This document shows positions 24,587 through 51,273 of a stretch of 64,000 bases of DNA, in pieces. Made by a program: the position numbers and the translations under genes. Each line of letters starts with the position of its first letter. Position 1 is the first letter of the stretch. The DNA comes from Mycobacteroides chelonae. Its GTDB lineage: Bacteria; Actinomycetota; Actinomycetes; Mycobacteriales; Mycobacteriaceae. Below the pieces are notes generated by a model. That model was given only the letters and a program-made list of their open reading frames with translations. It did no database searches and was not told the origin of the DNA. Where the stretch lies: NCBI RefSeq assembly GCF_016767715.1, contig NZ_CP050145.1:3348001-3412000 (forward strand). The letters are read 5' to 3'.

Positions 24587-24659
24587 TACCCCCGATGGGA
24601 TTCGAACCCACGCTACCGCCGTGAGAGGGCGGCGTCCTAGGCCGCTAGACGACGGGGGC
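24587..24659 (-). tRNA. tRNA-Glu (CTC)
   Basis: Cloverleaf on the minus strand: acceptor GCCCCCG pairs with CGGGGGT, anticodon CTC sits in a CCGCC/GGCGG-closed arm, the T-loop is GGTTCGAATCC, and CCA is encoded at 24586-24584. It charges with Glu for GAG codons and lies beside gltX. Confidence 0.96.
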
Positions 24660-24756
24660 TAGAACATTTCCGTGCAACGCGCGTGGCGCGCAGACTTGAC
24701 AGTCTAGCTCACCGGTACGCATCACACCAAATCACTTGTCGTGCAAATGATTTGCG

Positions 24757-24828
24757 CTGGGGTACCAGGACTCGAACCTAGAATGGCGGTACCAGAAACC
24801 GCTGTGTTGCCAATTACACCATACCCCA
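24757..24828 (-). tRNA. tRNA-Gln (CTG)
   Basis: Cloverleaf on the minus strand: acceptor TGGGGTA pairs with TACCCCA, discriminator G, anticodon CTG within TTTCTGG, T-loop GGTTCGAGTCC. No CCA is encoded. In mycobacteria this tRNA is first charged with Glu by GltX and then amidated by GatCAB, whose A and B subunits are encoded at 58.6-64 kb. Confidence 0.96.
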
Positions 24829-42685: not shown

Positions 42686-43870
42686 CTAGGGCAGCGAGCT
42701 TTCTCCATCTCCCGACGGCTGTCCCGACAAGGCACCCCCACGTTCATACTCGCGGATTGTCTTCCTGATGTGTTCAGCTGCCACCGTATAGATGTCAACC
42801 ACAGATTTGATATCCCGGCGAATTCCATCTTTGCCGGCCTCAAACGTTGTTACGAACTTGACGCTCTTGCCGTTCAGATGCAACCGAATGATCGGCTTTC
42901 GGTTGTTGTTGTCCAACAGGATCGCAAAGTACGACTTCCCATCTCGATGATGGATGCGCTCTGGGCCTACTTCCGAAACCGCAATTGCACGAACAATGTT
43001 GAATCCTTCCAGCTCTTCGTCCGTGGTCACGATGTCGGGATCGGCGGTGTCAGTAGCTTCGCCGGGAAGCTCTGCGGTGACTGCCTGTCCAACAGCGGCA
43101 TACGCCCGCGTGGGCGGTGAAACGAGTTCAGTCGACCGATTCGGGTCTGGGGCATCATCGCCCAGTGCGGTCTTAAGCCGACTGTTCACCTGATCACCGA
43201 CGTACTGGTTCAGTGCCTTGGCGACCAGCGGGCGAAACTGTTCCAGGATTCGTTGGGTGGTTCGTCCCTCGTATATGCGATTCACGAAGAATCTCACCCA
43301 TTCCTCTGAAGGGTCCTTCACTTCGGCAGCGATGATCCGACGGATACCTCCTATGTACTTCAGTTCTTCGGCGGCGCTGACAACAGAATCGATGTCGAAC
43401 GATTCCTTCGAAAACTTCTGAATCTCGGGGACCAAAGTGCGATCGATGTCAAGCAGGTCGAATATGAGGAATGGCTTCTCGTCCATACGATTCGGAAGGT
43501 CGCCATCGGTGTAGACGTGATATTGCTGACCGTTGGTCAAAATCGCAATCCGAGCAGAGGTCACGGCGAAGTACCGGAACAACTGTGATGCGTAGCGAAG
43601 GTCTAGCGGATCACCAATCTTCTTGCATTCAATGAGAATCTGGACCTGACCGTCTTTGAAGATCGCGTAGTCGACCTTCTCACCCTTCTTCACACCGACA
43701 TCAGCGATGAATTCGGGCACTACCTCCGACGGGTCAAATACGTCGTAACCGAGCACGTTCGATATGAACGGCATGATGAAGGCATTCTTGGTTGCTTCTT
43801 CAGTCTGCACCGAATCTCTGGTATCGCGAATCTTCTTCGCTAAGCCCGCAAGCCCATCTGAAAACGCCAT
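42686..43870 (-). CDS. Stand-alone HsdR-N-like PD-(D/E)XK nuclease-fold protein
   Basis: The 394-residue protein resembles the N-terminal nuclease domain of type I restriction enzyme R subunits: a helical start, EVVPEFIADVG, VDYAIFKDGQ and ILIECKK (near 48-85) supply the acidic and Lys residues of the PD-(D/E)XK site. There is no helicase domain and no hsdM or hsdS nearby. A Pro/Ala/Thr-rich linker precedes a C-terminal domain (about 295-385). Codon use is clearly more AT-rich than neighbouring genes, suggesting transfer. Defence or DNA maintenance is inference. Confidence 0.85.
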   Translation of the reverse strand: MAFSDGLAGLAKKIRDTRDSVQTEEATKNAFIMPFISNVLGYDVFDPSEVVPEFIADVGVKKGEKVDYAIFKDGQVQILIECKKIGDPLDLRYASQLFRYFAVTSARIAILTNGQQYHVYTDGDLPNRMDEKPFLIFDLLDIDRTLVPEIQKFSKESFDIDSVVSAAEELKYIGGIRRIIAAEVKDPSEEWVRFFVNRIYEGRTTQRILEQFRPLVAKALNQYVGDQVNSRLKTALGDDAPDPNRSTELVSPPTRAYAAVGQAVTAELPGEATDTADPDIVTTDEELEGFNIVRAIAVSEVGPERIHHRDGKSYFAILLDNNNRKPIIRLHLNGKSVKFVTTFEAGKDGIRRDIKSVVDIYTVAAEHIRKTIREYERGGALSGQPSGDGESSLP

Positions 43871-44073: not shown

Positions 44074-45102
<1,029 letters not shown>

Positions 45103-45121: not shown

Positions 45122-45625
45122 TTACTTGGCGGCGGCGATGGACCGCGGGCCGCGCGACAGCGCGACCACGCCGGATTGCACGATCTCCCGAATACCGTAC
45201 GGGTCGAGCATCCGCAGCAGTGCATCCAGCTTGGACTGGGTGCCCGTCGCCTCGATGGTCACCGACTCCGGCGATACATCCACGACCTTGGCACGGAACA
45301 GGTTCACCACCTCGATGACCTGCGCCCGCACCGTCGCATCGGCGCGCACCTTGACGAGCATCAGCTCGCGGGCCACCGAATTCTCCTCGTCCTGTTCGAC
45401 GATCTTGATCACGTTGATGAGCTTGTTGAGCTGCTTGGTGACCTGTTCGAGCGGAAAATCGTCGACGGTGACGACGATTGTCATGCGCGAAATACCTTTG
45501 AGCTCCGTCGGACCCACCGCCAACGATGCGATGTTGAAGCCACGACGGGAGAACAGTGCGGCGACACGGGCGAGCACACCGGGACGGTCCTCGACCAGAA
45601 CGCTCAGAGTGTGGGTGCTGGTCAT
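45122..45625 (-). CDS. ilvN: Acetolactate synthase small (regulatory) subunit
   Basis: The 167-residue protein begins with an ACT domain ([31 protein letters not shown] region) that binds valine for feedback inhibition of IlvB. Its ATG overlaps the ilvB stop (ATGA), which is the usual coupling for a 1:1 complex. Confidence 0.98.
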
Positions 45626-47472
45626 CGTGACCCTTCCTGCTCCGCAGTTTCATCATCGTCGAACAGCGGTCGGATGCCCCGCGCCGCCTGGATCTCGTCA
45701 TTGCTGGTGCCCGCCGCGACCATCGGCCACACCTGGGCGTCGGCACCGACGATGAAGTCGATGACCACCGGGCGATCGTTGATGGCCCGTGCCTCTTCGA
45801 TCACCTTGGCGACGTCCTCTTCACGCTCGCAACGCAATCCGACGCAGCCAAGCGCCTCGGCCAGCTTCACGAAATCGGGGATGCGGCGCGAGTGTGTGGC
45901 CAAGTCGGTCTGCGAGTAGCGCTGCTCGTAGAACAGCGTCTGCCACTGACGCACCATGCCCAGGTTGCCGTTGTTGATGAGCGCCACCTTGATGGGCACG
46001 CCCTCGATGGCGCAGGTGGCCAGCTCCTGGTTGGTCATCTGGAAGCAGCCGTCACCGTCGATGGCCCACACCTCGGCCTCGGGCCGCGCCATCTTGGCAC
46101 CCATGGCCGCGGGAACCGCGAAGCCCATGGTGCCCAGGCCACCGGAGTTGAGCCAGGTACGCGGGTTCTCGTACTTCACGAACTGCGCGGCCCACATCTG
46201 GTGCTGCCCAACGCCCGCCACGTAGACCGCGTCGGGTCCGGCGATCTTGCCCAACGTCTCGATGACGAACTCCGGGCCCAGGCTGCCGTCGTGCTGTGCG
46301 TCGTATCCCAGCGGGTAGGTCGCGCGGATACCCGAGAGGTACTCCCACCACTCGGACAGATCGGTGGTCGCACCCGTCGCACGGTCGTTCCGGATGGCTT
46401 CGGTCAGCTCGGCGATGACGTTCTTCACGTCGCCGACGATCGGCACATCCGCATGGCGGTTCTTACCGATCTCGGCGGGGTCGATATCGGCGTGAATCAC
46501 CTTGGCGTCCGGCGCGAACGAGTCCAGCTGCCCGGTGACGCGGTCGTCGAAGCGCGCGCCCAGGGTGATCAGCAGATCGCTGCGCTGCAGTGCTGCCACC
46601 GCGCCGACGGTGCCGTGCATTCCGGGCATACCCATGTGCAGCTCGTGGCTGTCGGGGAATGCACCGCGCGCCATAAGGGTGGTGACGACGGGGATGCCGG
46701 TCAGTTCGGCCAATTCCTTGAGTTCCGGGGATGCGTCCGCGCGGATGACACCGCCACCGACGTACAGCACCGGACGCTTGGCGGCGGCGATGAGCCGAAC
46801 CGCCTCACGGACCTGCTTGCCGTGCGGCTTGGTGACGGGCTTATAGCCGGGCAGGTAGATCTGCGGCGGCCAGCTGAACGTGGTCTGCGCCTGCAGCACG
46901 TCCTTGGGGATATCGACGAGCACCGCACCGGGACGGCCGCTCTGGGCGATGTAGAAAGCCTCGGCGATGACCCGCGGGATGTCCTCGGCGTTGTTCACCA
47001 GGAAGTTGTGCTTGGTGATCGGCATGGTGATGCCGGAGATGTCGGCTTCCTGGAAGGCGTCAGTGCCGATGAGGCCCCGCCCCACCTGCCCGGTGATCGC
47101 GACCACCGGGATGGAATCCATCTGCGCGTCGGCCAACGGGGTGACCAGGTTGGTGGCACCCGGGCCAGAAGTGGCCATCATGACGCCGACCTTGCCGCTG
47201 GCGTGGGCGTACCCGCTGGCGGCGTGCCCGCCACCCTGCTCGTGCCGCACCAGGACATGCCGGACCTTCACCGAGTCGTACAGCGGGTCGTACACGGGCA
47301 GCACCGCACCGCCGGGAATACCGAAGATGACCTCGACACCGAGCTCCTCAAGCGAGCGCACTACCGACTGCGCGCCGGTGACGCGCTGGGGTGCGACGGT
47401 GTTCGCTTCCGGAGCTGCTGCTGGGGCCGGCCCAGAAGCAGAAGCCGGCTTGGGCTTTGCAGGTGCACTCAT
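45622..47472 (-). CDS. ilvB: Acetolactate synthase large subunit
   Basis: The 616-residue thiamine-diphosphate enzyme has an Ala/Pro-rich extension of about 30 residues, the catalytic Glu region [11 protein letters not shown] near 75, and the ThDP-binding [14 protein letters not shown] motif near 480. It makes acetolactate and acetohydroxybutyrate, the first step of valine, leucine and isoleucine synthesis. A leader peptide and terminator lie upstream (47519-47641), indicating attenuation. Confidence 0.98.
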
Positions 47473-47518: not shown

Positions 47519-47554
47519 AAAAAACCCCCGCCAGCGGTCTGCTGTACGAGGGTT
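47519..47554 (-). terminator. ilvBNC attenuator terminator
   Basis: On the minus strand, AACCCTCG-TA-CAGC pairs with GCTG-G-CGGGGGTT around an AGACC loop, followed directly by further T residues (six T in total). It lies after the leader peptide and before ilvB, so it is an attenuator rather than a gene-end terminator. Confidence 0.8.
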
Positions 47555-47590
47555 GCGCGTCGAGTGTGCGCGAGTTGCCTTGGACTCGGG

Positions 47591-47641
47591 CTACGCGTCG
47601 ACGCGCATACCGATTACTACGAGCAAGGCGGGGTTGTTCAC
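47591..47641 (-). CDS. ilvB leader peptide with Leu-Leu-Val-Val-Ile codons
   Basis: GTG 47641 opens a 16-codon frame translating as MNNPALLVVIGMRVDA, ending in TAG. Five consecutive branched-chain codons (TTG CTC GTA GTA ATC) are the control codons expected for a leader that senses charged tRNA-Leu, -Val and -Ile. A promoter TTGACT-N18-TACCGT ends 7 nt upstream, so translation is probably leaderless. A 10-nt stretch at 47607-47598 is exactly complementary to 47563-47554, next to the terminator. Attenuation of ilvBNC by a leader peptide is known in Corynebacterium glutamicum. Confidence 0.75.
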   Translation of the reverse strand: MNNPALLVVIGMRVDA

Positions 47642-47648
47642 ACCGCGT

Positions 47649-47678
47649 ACGGTAGTCGTTTCTGGAGGTCCGAGTCAA
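47649..47678 (-). promoter_or_regulatory. Promoter of ilvBNC leader
   Basis: TTGACT (47678-47673) and TACCGT (47654-47649) are separated by 18 nt. The expected start of transcription coincides with the GTG of the leader peptide at 47641. Confidence 0.7.
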
Positions 47679-47769: not shown

Positions 47770-48159
47770 ATGACCGAGGAGAAGCGCACAGTCATCAGGA
47801 CGTCGCCGATGGCGCATTTCATGTCCGGGTTCCTGGCGCTCGGCATCCTGACGTTCGTCCTGTACCTCCCGGTCCTCGCGCCGCTGCTGCTGATCCCCGC
47901 CGCCATGTCCTATGCCATCTTCCGGTATCGGACCGCAGTCGACACCGAATCAGTGCAGGTACGAACGCTGGCAAGCACCCGGACGCTGCCGTGGACAGAG
48001 GTCAAGGGCCTCGGATTCGACAGGCACGCCTGGGCACGCGCCGAACTCGTCGACGGCACCTCGCTGCGTCTCCCGGCGGTCACCTTCTCGACGCTGCCGA
48101 TCCTGTCGGCGGCCAGCAATGGCCGGGTGCCGAATCCGTACCAAGGGGTTCAGCGCTAG
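47770..48159 (+). CDS. PH-domain membrane protein similar to Cfp6 (Rv3004)
   Basis: The roughly 129-residue protein has two hydrophobic segments (about 22-50 counted from 47770) and a bacterial PH domain ending LRLPAVTFSTLPILSAASNGRVPNPY, which closely resembles the low-molecular-weight antigen Cfp6 of M. tuberculosis. The start is uncertain: ATG 47770 has GGAGGG immediately before it; ATG 47809 corresponds to the known start of Cfp6. Function unknown. Its stop overlaps that of the convergent gene by four bases. Confidence 0.85.
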   Translation: MTEEKRTVIRTSPMAHFMSGFLALGILTFVLYLPVLAPLLLIPAAMSYAIFRYRTAVDTESVQVRTLASTRTLPWTEVKGLGFDRHAWARAELVDGTSLRLPAVTFSTLPILSAASNGRVPNPYQGVQR

Positions 48160-49382
48160 GCGGCCAAACGGTCCTGCATGCCCCACGGGGCACCGAAGGT
48201 ATTGAGCCGGTCCAGGAACGGGAGACTGTCGAAGGCCTCCGGCCCCAGCACACCGGTGCCGCTCCACGCACCCTCGGCGAGCAGTTCCAGGGCCACCACC
48301 GGGTTCACGGCGGTCTGCCACACGACACATTGCGCACCGTCGCGTGCCATCGTCCACTCGTTGTCGACGACGTGATGCAGGTAGACCTCGCGGGGCTTGC
48401 CGTCCTTACCGGTCCCAGTCACCCACAGACCCGCACAGGTGGCCCCGCGCATCAGATGCCCCAGCCCGGCCGGGTCCGGTAGGCACGCCGCCACCACATC
48501 ACGAGGACTCACCGCGGCGGCGCGGCCGTCGGCGTGCACGCTGACCGGGTCGGTGCTGTCCAGCCCGACCAGGCGCAGGGTGCGCAGCACGTTGATGAAT
48601 TCGGCGCCGAGGCCGTATTTGAATGTCACCCGCCGGGCATTCACCCAGCGCGGCATGAGCACCACTTCCTCGTGCTCGACGTTGACGCATTCGACGGGGC
48701 CGATGCCTCCGGGGAAGTCGAAAACCTCCGGTTCGCTGAACGGTTCGGTGGTGAAGAACCCCTTGTTGCGTTCCCAGATCAGGGGCGGATTCAGGCATTC
48801 CTCGATGGTCGTCCAGATCGAGAAGGACGGCGCGAATCGGTATCCCTGCACTTCGAGATTGGATCCGTCGCGAGTGCCCAGCTCGTCGATCTCGGAGAAC
48901 AGATGGTCGGCGGCGTACCGCGCGAACACGTCGCTCAGGCCCGGCTCGACCCCGATACCGACCAAGGCCAACAGCCCTGCGGCTTCCCATTTTTCGGCCG
49001 CGGCGAACTGCTCATCGCCCAGCATAACCCCGGGCAGTTCGTACGGTCTTTCCGGATGGCGATGCGACAGACTCATCGCCATGTCGAGGTAGGTCACGCC
49101 TGCCGCGAAGCACCCGTCGAACACACTCATCACGAATCGAGGGTCGACCGCGTTGAGCGCGTGGGTGATTCGATGCTCCCGGCACAGCGCCGCGACATCG
49201 TCAGCCGAGGAGGCGTCGATGCGGGCCGCCGTGAATCGGGGATCACCGAGCCGATCCACCACCGCCTGCGCCCGGGCCATGTCATAGTCCGCGATCACCA
49301 GCGCCTCGAAGAACTCGCGACGGGCCGCGATGAACGCGGCCGCGCTGCCCACTCCCCCGGCACCCACGATGAGAATTCGCAT
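48156..49382 (-). CDS. Saccharopine dehydrogenase-like oxidoreductase
   Basis: ATG 49382, two bases after the aminotransferase stop, gives 408 residues beginning with a Rossmann motif MRILIVGAGGVGSAAAF. The family includes saccharopine reductases/dehydrogenases and carboxynorspermidine dehydrogenase, which join an amino group to a keto acid or aldehyde carbon. With the aminotransferase and Lrp regulator in the same operon, action on a diamine- or lysine-derived compound is likely, but direction and substrate are inferred only. Confidence 0.85.
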   Translation of the reverse strand: MRILIVGAGGVGSAAAFIAARREFFEALVIADYDMARAQAVVDRLGDPRFTAARIDASSADDVAALCREHRITHALNAVDPRFVMSVFDGCFAAGVTYLDMAMSLSHRHPERPYELPGVMLGDEQFAAAEKWEAAGLLALVGIGVEPGLSDVFARYAADHLFSEIDELGTRDGSNLEVQGYRFAPSFSIWTTIEECLNPPLIWERNKGFFTTEPFSEPEVFDFPGGIGPVECVNVEHEEVVLMPRWVNARRVTFKYGLGAEFINVLRTLRLVGLDSTDPVSVHADGRAAAVSPRDVVAACLPDPAGLGHLMRGATCAGLWVTGTGKDGKPREVYLHHVVDNEWTMARDGAQCVVWQTAVNPVVALELLAEGAWSGTGVLGPEAFDSLPFLDRLNTFGAPWGMQDRLAA

Positions 49383-49384
49383 GT

Positions 49385-50770
49385 CTATAACCGCGCCCAC
49401 GCCTCGGTGAGCACCCCGCGCAGGATCTGCTCGATCGCATCGAACTCCTGCTTCCCCGAAATCAGCGGCGGTGCAAGCTGAATCACCGGGTCGCCGCGGT
49501 CGTCGGCGCGACAGTACAGGCCAGCATCCCAGAGCGCGGCAGACAGGAAGCCGCGCAGCAGCCGCTCGCTCTCCTCGCCGCTGAACGTCTCCTTGGTCGT
49601 CTTGTCCTTGACCAATTCGATTCCATAGAAGTACCCCTCACCGCGCACGTCACCGACGATCGGCAGGTCGTGGAGCTTCTCCAGGGTGGCCCGGAACACC
49701 GGGGCGTTCTCATGCACCCGATCGTTGAGGCCCTCCCGTTCGAAGATATCGAGGTTGGCAAGAGCCACCGCCGCCGAAACAGGATGTCCGCCAAAGGTAT
49801 ATCCGTGCGGGAAGGTGGTCTTACCGTCGTTGAACGGCTCGAACAGACGGTCCGTGGCGATCATCGCCCCGATCGGCGAGTACCCGGAGGTCATGCCCTT
49901 GGCACAGGTGATGATGTCCGGCTGGTATCCGAAATCCTCGCAGGCGAACATCGATCCGATACGGCCGAAGGCGCAGATCACCTCGTCGGACACCAGCAGC
50001 ACGTCGTACTCGTCGCAGATTTCCCGCACCCGCTCGAAGTAGCCGGGCGGGGGCGGGAAGCAACCGCCCGCGTTCTGCACAGGCTCGAGGAAGACCGCCG
50101 CGACCGTGTCGGGTCCCTCGAATTCGATCGCCTCGGCGATCCGGTCGGCACAGTAGCGCCCGAACGCCTTGGGATCGTGGGCGTATGCCTCCGGGGCCCG
50201 ATAGAAGTTGGTGTTCGGTGCGCGGAATCCGCCCGGGGTCAGCGGTTCGAAGGGTGCCTTGAACGCCGGCAGACCGGTGATGGCCAATGCGCCCTGCGGG
50301 GTTCCGTGATACGCGATGGCGCGCGAAATCACCTTGTGCTTACCAGGTTTACCGGTCAGCTTGAAGAACTGTTTGGCCAGCTTCCACGCGCTTTCCACCG
50401 CTTCTCCCCCGCCCGTGGTGAAGAAGACGCGGTTCAGGTCGCCCGGGGCGTACCCGGCGATCCGATCGGCCAGCTCGATCGCGGTCGGGGTGGCGTAGGA
50501 CCACAGCGGGAAGAACGCGAGCTTCTCGGCTTGCCGGGCGGCGGCCTCCGCCAGTTCGGTGCGGCCGTGCCCGGCCTGCACGACGAACAATCCCGAAAGA
50601 CCGTCGAGATAACTCTTACCGCGGTCATCCCAGATCCGCACGCCCTCACCGCGCGTGATGATGGGCGGCGATATGCCCTCACCGTGGCGGGCGAAGTGGC
50701 CCCACAGATGGCGGGACGCCTTTTCCTGCAGGTCGCCGGAGATCTCGTGTGCTACATCGACGGTTGTCAC
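49385..50770 (-). CDS. Class III omega-aminotransferase (putrescine or diamine type likely)
   Basis: GTG 50770 overlaps the lrp stop (GTGA), giving 461 residues. Fold-type I features: TTGGGEAVESAWKLAK phosphate loop, Asp in LVSDEVICAFGRIG and the PLP Lys in TCAKGMTSGYSP (near 285). Class III enzymes of this kind move amino groups from putrescine, GABA, beta-alanine or similar to pyruvate. A PatD-like aminobutyraldehyde dehydrogenase and an APC permease nearby favour putrescine (inference). Confidence 0.9.
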   Translation of the reverse strand: MTTVDVAHEISGDLQEKASRHLWGHFARHGEGISPPIITRGEGVRIWDDRGKSYLDGLSGLFVVQAGHGRTELAEAAARQAEKLAFFPLWSYATPTAIELADRIAGYAPGDLNRVFFTTGGGEAVESAWKLAKQFFKLTGKPGKHKVISRAIAYHGTPQGALAITGLPAFKAPFEPLTPGGFRAPNTNFYRAPEAYAHDPKAFGRYCADRIAEAIEFEGPDTVAAVFLEPVQNAGGCFPPPPGYFERVREICDEYDVLLVSDEVICAFGRIGSMFACEDFGYQPDIITCAKGMTSGYSPIGAMIATDRLFEPFNDGKTTFPHGYTFGGHPVSAAVALANLDIFEREGLNDRVHENAPVFRATLEKLHDLPIVGDVRGEGYFYGIELVKDKTTKETFSGEESERLLRGFLSAALWDAGLYCRADDRGDPVIQLAPPLISGKQEFDAIEQILRGVLTEAWARL

Positions 50771-51273
50771 CGTGTACCCCAATTGTATTGTTGTTTCACT
50801 AGTTTCAGATAAACCAGGGTTTCCGTGGAGGTCACCCCGGGCACGGCACGAATCTGCTTGTTCAGCAGAACCAACAGGTCGTCGTCGTCCTCGCAGACCA
50901 CCTCGACGATCGCGTCGAAGGTTCCAGCAGTGAGCACTACGTAGTCGACCGCATCCAGCTCCGCGAGCCGGTCGGCCACCTCAGTGGTGTCACCGGAGCA
51001 TTTGATGCCGATCATGGCCTGGCGCGCGAACCCCAGCTGCATTGGATCGGTGACCGCCACGATCTGCATGACACCGGCGTCGATCATGCGTTGCACTCGT
51101 TGACGCACCGCCGCCTCCGAGAGGCCCACCGACTTACCGATGGTCGCGTATGGGCGCCGCCCATCCTGCTGAAGCTCCTCGACAATCGCTTTGGAAGCCT
51201 CATCGAGCTGGAATGCAGCCGAGCCGTTACCCGGATCGGCGACCCGCAACAGACGCCGTTTCGTGTTGGTCAC
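50767..51273 (-). CDS. Lrp/AsnC-family regulator
   Basis: The 168-residue protein (GTG start) has an N-terminal helix-turn-helix (ATIGKSVGLSEAAVRQRVQRM near 43-63) and a C-terminal RAM domain. It is the first gene of the Lrp-aminotransferase-dehydrogenase operon and divergent from the aldehyde dehydrogenase, so it probably controls both in response to an amino compound. Confidence 0.92.
   Translation of the reverse strand: MTNTKRRLLRVADPGNGSAAFQLDEASKAIVEELQQDGRRPYATIGKSVGLSEAAVRQRVQRMIDAGVMQIVAVTDPMQLGFARQAMIGIKCSGDTTEVADRLAELDAVDYVVLTAGTFDAIVEVVCEDDDDLLVLLNKQIRAVPGVTSTETLVYLKLVKQQYNWGTR

Follow-up and report, generated by a model that had tools for sequence, protein, structure and literature searches.

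A probable ribosome-mediated transcription attenuator with a putatively leaderless leader peptide upstream of ilvBNC in a mycobacterium

Attenuation in the ilvB leader is already known as a kind of control: it was predicted in 2005, the upstream open reading frame (uORF) was profiled in M. abscessus in 2016, and the leader was tested in M. tuberculosis in 2026. According to the available text of the reports cited here, leader peptides and terminators were predicted in 2005 for ilvB of Corynebacterium, Mycobacterium and Streptomyces (PMC1262725). These predicted actinobacterial leaders share both elements with the locus described below, and that text names no antiterminator for ilvB and discusses no transcription start. 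For the M. tuberculosis ilvB1NC leader, a short RNA of approximately 120 nt and a response to an IlvB1 inhibitor have been described, and reporters combined with end sequencing showed that an LVVI-to-AAAA change abolishes induction (PMC13236596). Like our locus, this leader has a uORF rich in branched-chain codons with a Leu-Val-Val-Ile run and a terminator with a U-tract, and stalling at the regulatory codons was proposed to let an anti-terminator form; the available text does not state whether the M. tuberculosis uORF is leaderless or by what means the anti-terminator excludes the terminator. In M. tuberculosis, the end of the U-tract is at +126 and the start of ilvB1 at +168 (PMC13236596), versus +123 and +170 from GTG 47641 at our locus, which differs in having two Leu codons and a GTG start. 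The "fast attenuator" of C. glutamicum ilvBNC is similar in having a terminator and Leu-Val-Val-Val as its codons, and a single nucleotide separates its transcription start from the start of the uORF; its antiterminator overlaps the terminator by the boundary trinucleotide only (PMC11857589), which serves below as the analogy for our locus. It differs in its peptide (MTIIRLVVVTARRLP), its longer leader (292 bp) and a proposed additional antiantiterminator hairpin (PMC11857589). In M. abscessus, probably a close relative, ribosome profiling showed a uORF upstream of the ilvB gene MAB_3323c (PMC4974804), for which the available text gives no attenuation mechanism, and the ilvB leader peptides of C. 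diphtheriae (PMC5784534) and S. lividans (PMC8079986), other genera with other peptides (MNIIRLVVITTRRLP and MRTRILVLGKRVG), are reported to be leaderless.

We analyzed 64,000 nucleotides of Mycobacteroides chelonae DNA (hereafter the window), in which ilvB, the regulated gene, is followed by ilvN and ilvC, all three identified by passing NCBIfam equivalog cut-offs (Table 1). The ilvB frame begins at ATG 47472 on the minus strand. The window ilvB is 78–85% identical to ilvB of seven Mycobacterium/Mycolicibacterium records; within the genus, one genome carries an essentially identical IlvB protein and two others are 96 and 94% identical. Downstream of ilvC, the minus strand also encodes a protein of 394 residues (42686-43870) that carries HSDR_N (PF04313), the N-terminal domain of type I restriction enzyme R. 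On the other side, Pfam identified three consecutive genes, for a saccharopine dehydrogenase-like protein, a class III aminotransferase and an Lrp/AsnC regulator (48156-51273, minus strand), perhaps a lysine-related cluster.

Table 1. Coordinates of the operon genes and of the leader elements within the window.
Feature	Position	Strand	Basis
ilvB, acetolactate synthase large subunit	45622..47472	minus	NF005860.0, 1164.5 bits vs cut-off 881
ilvN, acetolactate synthase small subunit	45122..45625	minus	NF008864.0, 230.1 bits vs cut-off 119
ilvC, ketol-acid reductoisomerase	44074..45087	minus	NF004017.0, 544.4 bits vs cut-off 336
-35 hexamer TTGACT	47678-47673	minus	base-by-base readout; TTGAC at 17-18 nt spacing in 81/81 leaders
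-10 hexamer TACCGT	47654-47649	minus	readout; TANNNT 6-9 nt before in-frame ATG/GTG in 81/81 leaders
uORF, 16 codons, VNNPALLVVIGMRVDA*, GTG at predicted transcription start	47641-47591	minus	orthologous uORF in 81/81 leaders
Regulatory codons TTG CTC GTA GTA ATC (Leu Leu Val Val Ile)	47626-47612	minus	readout; GTA-GTA in 80/81 leaders
Putative antiterminator 5' arm b, TGCGCGTCGA 47607-47598, with 5' extension GGU 47611-47609	47598..47611	minus	readout, folding, covariation
Putative antiterminator 3' arm b', TCGACGCGCA 47563-47554, one nucleotide from terminator CCC	47554..47563	minus	readout, covariation, RNAalifold
Intrinsic terminator hairpin, CCCTCGTACAGC 47552-47541 / AGACC / GCTGGCGGGGG 47535-47525	47525..47552	minus	readout, alignment, folding
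U-tract, six T	47519..47524	minus	readout

To compare the leader with its orthologues, we used 81 mycobacterial leaders, among which the same species may occur twice: 74 from genomes of the genus (the best-scoring loci plus 20 picked by hand, from 142 genomes with a match among 148 searched) and 7 from records titled Mycobacterium or Mycolicibacterium. The anchors used to locate a leader were GTAGT(A/G), a run rich in G and at least four T; none of the 81 failed. Those that differ between the GTA and the U-tract form a set of 74 distinct leaders, whose equality in number with the 74 genomes is coincidental.

The initial annotation had placed a TTGACT-N18-TACCGT promoter 7 nt before GTG 47641 and, from the predicted transcription start, a 16-codon frame with five consecutive Leu-Leu-Val-Val-Ile codons. 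Both are exact in the sequence readout, the frame running from the GTG, read as Met, to TAG 47591. A scan with consensus promoter and terminator models picked up neither the leader promoter nor the leader terminator, its sole match being a plus-strand terminator-like site at 47801. The arrangement recurs in the orthologues: TTGACN precedes TANNNT by 17–18 nt in every one of the 81 leaders, and the distance from the -10 hexamer to an in-frame start codon (ATG in 75, GTG in 6) is 8 nt in 71 leaders, 7 in 7, 6 in 2 and 9 in 1. While this promoter-to-start spacing is confined to 6–9 nt, the GTA lies anywhere between 15 and 51 nt from the start codon. A Shine-Dalgarno-like stretch was found within 20 nt before the uORF start in 19/81 leaders; 18 of these 19 end before the -10 hexamer and would lie outside the transcript, and one lies behind it. 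The simplest reading of the mycobacterial ilvB leaders, which we infer strongly from these spacings, is that transcription begins at the uORF start codon. The earlier proposal that the sensing peptide is read from a leaderless mRNA is backed in this way by the 81 leaders and by the published orthologous leaders, and stays at the strength of a strong sequence-based prediction.

The Val pair of the regulatory codons is nearly invariant, the single departure from GTA-GTA being one GTA-GTG. GTA makes up only 62 of the 1260 Val codons (4.9%) in the 35 predicted genes of the window, and the retention of this rare codon throughout the genus would fit a sensor that needs easy stalling. When both strands of the window are counted, three ATG/GTG frames of 8–40 codons contain at least five consecutive Ile, Leu or Val codons, two of them nested together, and the ilvB uORF is the only one with six T within 110 nt past its stop and TANNNT 6–9 nt upstream. 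It is highly improbable that the region is an ordinary constitutive terminator with a chance short frame and that ilvBNC is controlled otherwise. Codon substitutions without effect in the S. coelicolor leader (cited in PMC1262725) would suit such an arrangement, and we count them against our preferred explanation as well. However, the near-invariant GTA-GTA, the conservation and covariation across the 74 distinct leaders (see below), the ribosome-protected uORF before M. abscessus ilvB (PMC4974804) and the codon-mutant reporter in M. tuberculosis (PMC13236596) all argue against a constitutive terminator.

A terminator with six T between the uORF and ilvB had also been annotated, and it too is exact in the readout; its base, CCC:GGG, is paired in all 74 distinct leaders. 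The fold of the 126-nt leader has a z-score of -3.34, with 0/200 shuffles equally stable. Loss of AACC or AACCC would weaken the window terminator from -18.9 kcal/mol to -10.9 or -7.8 kcal/mol, respectively, a cost of 8 or 11 kcal/mol, and would leave the hairpin further from the U-tract. Within the terminator stem, a U-G wobble (columns 91 and 116 of alignment A1) occurs in 71/74 leaders and U-A in 3; the wobble is maintained although U-A would pair better. A ligand- or protein-binding RNA in place of a ribosome sensor was considered because some bacteria have ppGpp riboswitches that control ilvB (PMC10272879). Yet conservation in the leader follows the codons and two hairpins, and we give this possibility next to no probability. 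At family cut-offs, Rfam reported only two tRNA genes across the window (24587-24828, minus strand) and no ilvB-leader family match, and below cut-off it gave only two matches, the best with 21.2 bits vs 50. An Rfam riboswitch class for the leader was rejected on this lack of a match at cut-off.

Arm b occupies the 3' half of the uORF, mostly Arg-Val-Asp/Gly-Ala codons, and arm b' is the stretch just before the terminator. The 10-nt complementarity between them had been noticed in the window sequence alone; each arm is the exact reverse complement of the other, and the pairing belongs to a helix conserved in the 74 distinct leaders. Folding and covariation analysis of orthologous leaders, suggested by the initial annotation as a check, put b:b' above shuffles in three of five measures. 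In the 74 distinct leaders, 96.8% of b:b' cells are paired versus 93.8 +/- 0.4% in shuffles, both sides are changed in 37 cells versus 13.8 +/- 7.0, and the covariation score exceeds all 500 shuffles. The other two measures, both of them pair counts, are not above shuffles for b:b' (113 and 171 of 500). Controls in which b:b' was slid pair 18.5–55.2% of cells. Most of the covariation signal is carried by a single pair, which is G-C in 37 leaders, A-U in 28, G-U in 7 and other in 2. The RNAalifold consensus contains the core of b:b' (8 pairs) together with the terminator, both found unaided. In 7/81 leaders, arm b is shifted by one base toward the start of the uORF with respect to the codons, and the peptide reads CALVVA instead of RVGA or RVDA as elsewhere; it is the arm that is kept rather than the encoded residues. 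A parsimony analysis of 61 loci, run on a nucleotide tree of ilvB, placed many double changes at a single pair; it was not relied on, the tree being a single-gene tree without a support filter.

Some leaders vary around these arms. Seven of them (L006, L007, L116, L118, L119, L122 and L148, with the uORF MDNGMLVVA[HP]CALVVA) have a second Leu-Val-Val run inside arm b, and a ribosome stalled on this run would cover the arm. The uORF stop lies 27–36 nt past the first GTA, just behind b, in 38/74 distinct leaders and 42–48 nt past it in the other 36/74 (RVDAALALCRA type); in the late-stop class, the added codons may offer b an alternative partner, as in the fold of L031. In five leaders (L011, L012, L028, L133 and L143), CTACGAG just before b' is a possible extra switch element: it is the reverse complement of CTCGTAG in the Leu-Val-Val codons, while the ACGAG within it matches CTCGT of the terminator as well. 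As a part of the switch it was dropped because it is not general, being confined to these five leaders.

We also asked whether b, b' or the loop between them could pair with a terminator arm in the classical way. In a duplex test against shuffles, a z-score below -2 was reached for the loop with the 3' arm in 1/74 leaders, for b' with the 3' arm in 0, for b with the 5' arm in 5 and for b' with the 5' arm in 0; b with b', the positive control, reached it in 74/74. Classical arm pairing was rejected on these counts. An antiterminator formed by the b-b' loop and the terminator 3' arm, as drawn for C. ulcerans and proposed for the ilvB-II motif (PMC10272879), is accordingly very unlikely here, its duplexes being no better than those of shuffled loops (mean z 0.14). 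Without a ribosome, a pairing between CCCCGCC of the window leader (47633-47627) and the terminator GGCGGGG is possible, and it occurs in the minimum-energy fold. This pairing was rejected as well, since two close relatives, L112 and L113, do not retain it and the site lies under the stalled ribosome.

The effect of the ribosome was then mimicked by masking 27 nt around a codon, similar to the 26 nt used for M. tuberculosis (PMC13236596). In the predicted folds, the probability of b:b' is above 0.5 in 74/74 distinct leaders when the ribosome occupies the codon before the GTA or the first GTA, and in 65/74 when it occupies the second GTA. It is above 0.5 in 0/74 with the ribosome on the codon after the second Val, in 1/74 with the ribosome at the stop codon, and in 68/74 without a ribosome. 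In the model, the folding of b:b' is a sensor of ribosome position for a translated leader. The terminator base behaves differently from what a simple strand-exchange switch would require: it is formed in 74/74 leaders when the ribosome sits on Leu or the first Val, in 64/74 when it is at the stop and in 52/74 without a ribosome, and being commoner with a stall than at the stop is the opposite of such a switch. As b:b' forms without a ribosome, an untranslated leader should be ON. This fits badly with C. glutamicum, in which expression fell by 80% when the uORF had lost its start codon (cited in PMC11857589), and it weakens both our preferred explanation and the abutment reading given below.

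The initial annotation could not resolve a full antiterminator and stated that the pairing abuts the terminator stem rather than breaking it. This doubt was justified, since at equilibrium the conserved pairing and the terminator do not exclude each other: the two coexist, and the terminator stays folded in 74/74 leaders. To this extent the abutment holds, but it is not abutment alone, because with one bulged A the helix extends by GGU (47611-47609) : ACC (47553-47551), taking two C of the terminator base. Before the terminator 3' arm exists, and if the RNA from GTA+9 onward is free, the helix takes two or three nucleotides of the terminator CCC in 53/74 leaders, the window included. If the RNA is free only from GTA+12, this overlap falls to 5/74. 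The G that meets the first terminator C is present in 68/74 distinct leaders and absent in 6/74. The overlap needs GTA+9 to +11 to be free, and a footprint of +/-13 nt covers these positions unless the stall occurs one codon before the last Leu. That codon is Leu in 16/81 leaders, including the window, and any branched-chain codon in 25/81. Two readings of antitermination survive: overlap, in which the helix extends into the terminator CCC by G-C pairs, and abutment.

In the abutment reading, b:b' butted against the terminator without a linker would antiterminate by position, blocking closure of the terminator base inside the RNA exit channel of RNA polymerase without strand competition. We hold this to be possible but rather unlikely. 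With the 5' end free from GTA+9, the spacer between helix and terminator is 0 in 74/74 leaders, with 8–14 continuous pairs and the terminator intact in all; from GTA+12, it is 0 in 72/74 and 1 nt in 2. However, with free RNA only from GTA+15 onward, just 5 of the 74 leaders have a spacer of 0; it is 1 in 44, 2 in 23 and 4 in 2. A helix of at least 8 bp at a spacer of 0–1 was found in 74/74 leaders versus 30/1480 shuffled leaders, whereas any paired base within 1 nt of the terminator was found in 774/1480. Adjacency through weak helices is thus common, and the special feature is a long helix ending at the terminator, not adjacency as such. The 6 leaders without the overlapping G still form b:b', and contact would serve them too; in addition, neither terminator arm pairs with b, b' or the loop clearly better than in shuffles. 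On the other hand, adjacent double hairpins are treated as terminators in the available text of PMC8355165, b:b' also forms when no ribosome is present, and abutment is confounded with overlap, as the leaders that can overlap are a majority. In C. glutamicum, expression rose seven- to eight-fold when the terminator stem was mutated in the overlap region, which speaks for our preferred explanation; against it, A73G and G37A, which affect only the antiterminator and antiantiterminator, had moderate-to-weak effects, and expression tracked terminator stability (PMC11857589).

Altogether, we consider it likely that the element in the window is a ribosome-mediated transcription attenuator of ilvBNC that includes a boundary antitermination step. 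The window holds a run of branched-chain codons in a short uORF, a terminator before ilvB and a computed RNA structure that depends on ribosome position. Transcription would start at the leader-peptide GTG or right beside it, and the ribosome would initiate there without a Shine-Dalgarno site. With enough Leu, Val and Ile, the ribosome would reach the stop codon and, according to the computed folds, prevent b:b'; the terminator (47552-47519) would then stop RNA polymerase, as the orthologues suggest. When Leu, Val or Ile is short, the ribosome would wait on TTG CTC GTA GTA ATC, and b, left free, is predicted to pair with b' against the terminator base. By analogy with C. glutamicum, b:b' may then take or block the last two or three terminator base pairs beside the U-tract (GGU:ACC here), so that termination would fail and RNA polymerase would continue into ilvBNC. 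The well supported part of this explanation is attenuation through a leader peptide that is probably leaderless, and antitermination at the terminator boundary, drawn from C. glutamicum, is the least certain. Against the explanation as a whole we also count U23A in C. ulcerans, a change at a strictly conserved nucleotide that had no effect (PMC10272879).

We extended the comparison to 93 other loci, which include archaea, Firmicutes and cut contigs. A mechanical rule, applied without a shuffle control, gave a candidate leader in 49 of them and none in 44, with an upstream hairpin in 48/49 candidates. The start lies 5–9 nt behind TANNNT in 17/49 candidate leaders, so the spacing rule is less clear there than in mycobacteria. 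A similar tandem is present in other Actinobacteria: in 33/49 candidates, at most 3 nt separate the terminator from the end of a helix of at least 6 pairs, a count again without a shuffle control that would favor abutment. A search of titles and abstract openings, with most subscription journals outside reach, returned no abutting-hairpin antiterminator for actinobacterial ilvB beyond the C. glutamicum overlap model (PMC11857589).

The ilvB leader of the window ties a mapped sequence to a switch that would control an amino acid pathway in mycobacteria, and the analysis brings together a genus-wide alignment, a leaderless spacing rule and the putative antiterminator arms. A textbook attenuator needs two mutually exclusive hairpins, whereas here both coexist in 74/74 computed folds. 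As a tentative and, in our estimate, rather doubtful generalization, ilvB attenuators across Actinobacteria may work without strand exchange: stalling would free a hairpin butted against an intact terminator, and this hairpin would steal or sterically block the last 2–3 bp in the exit channel of RNA polymerase.
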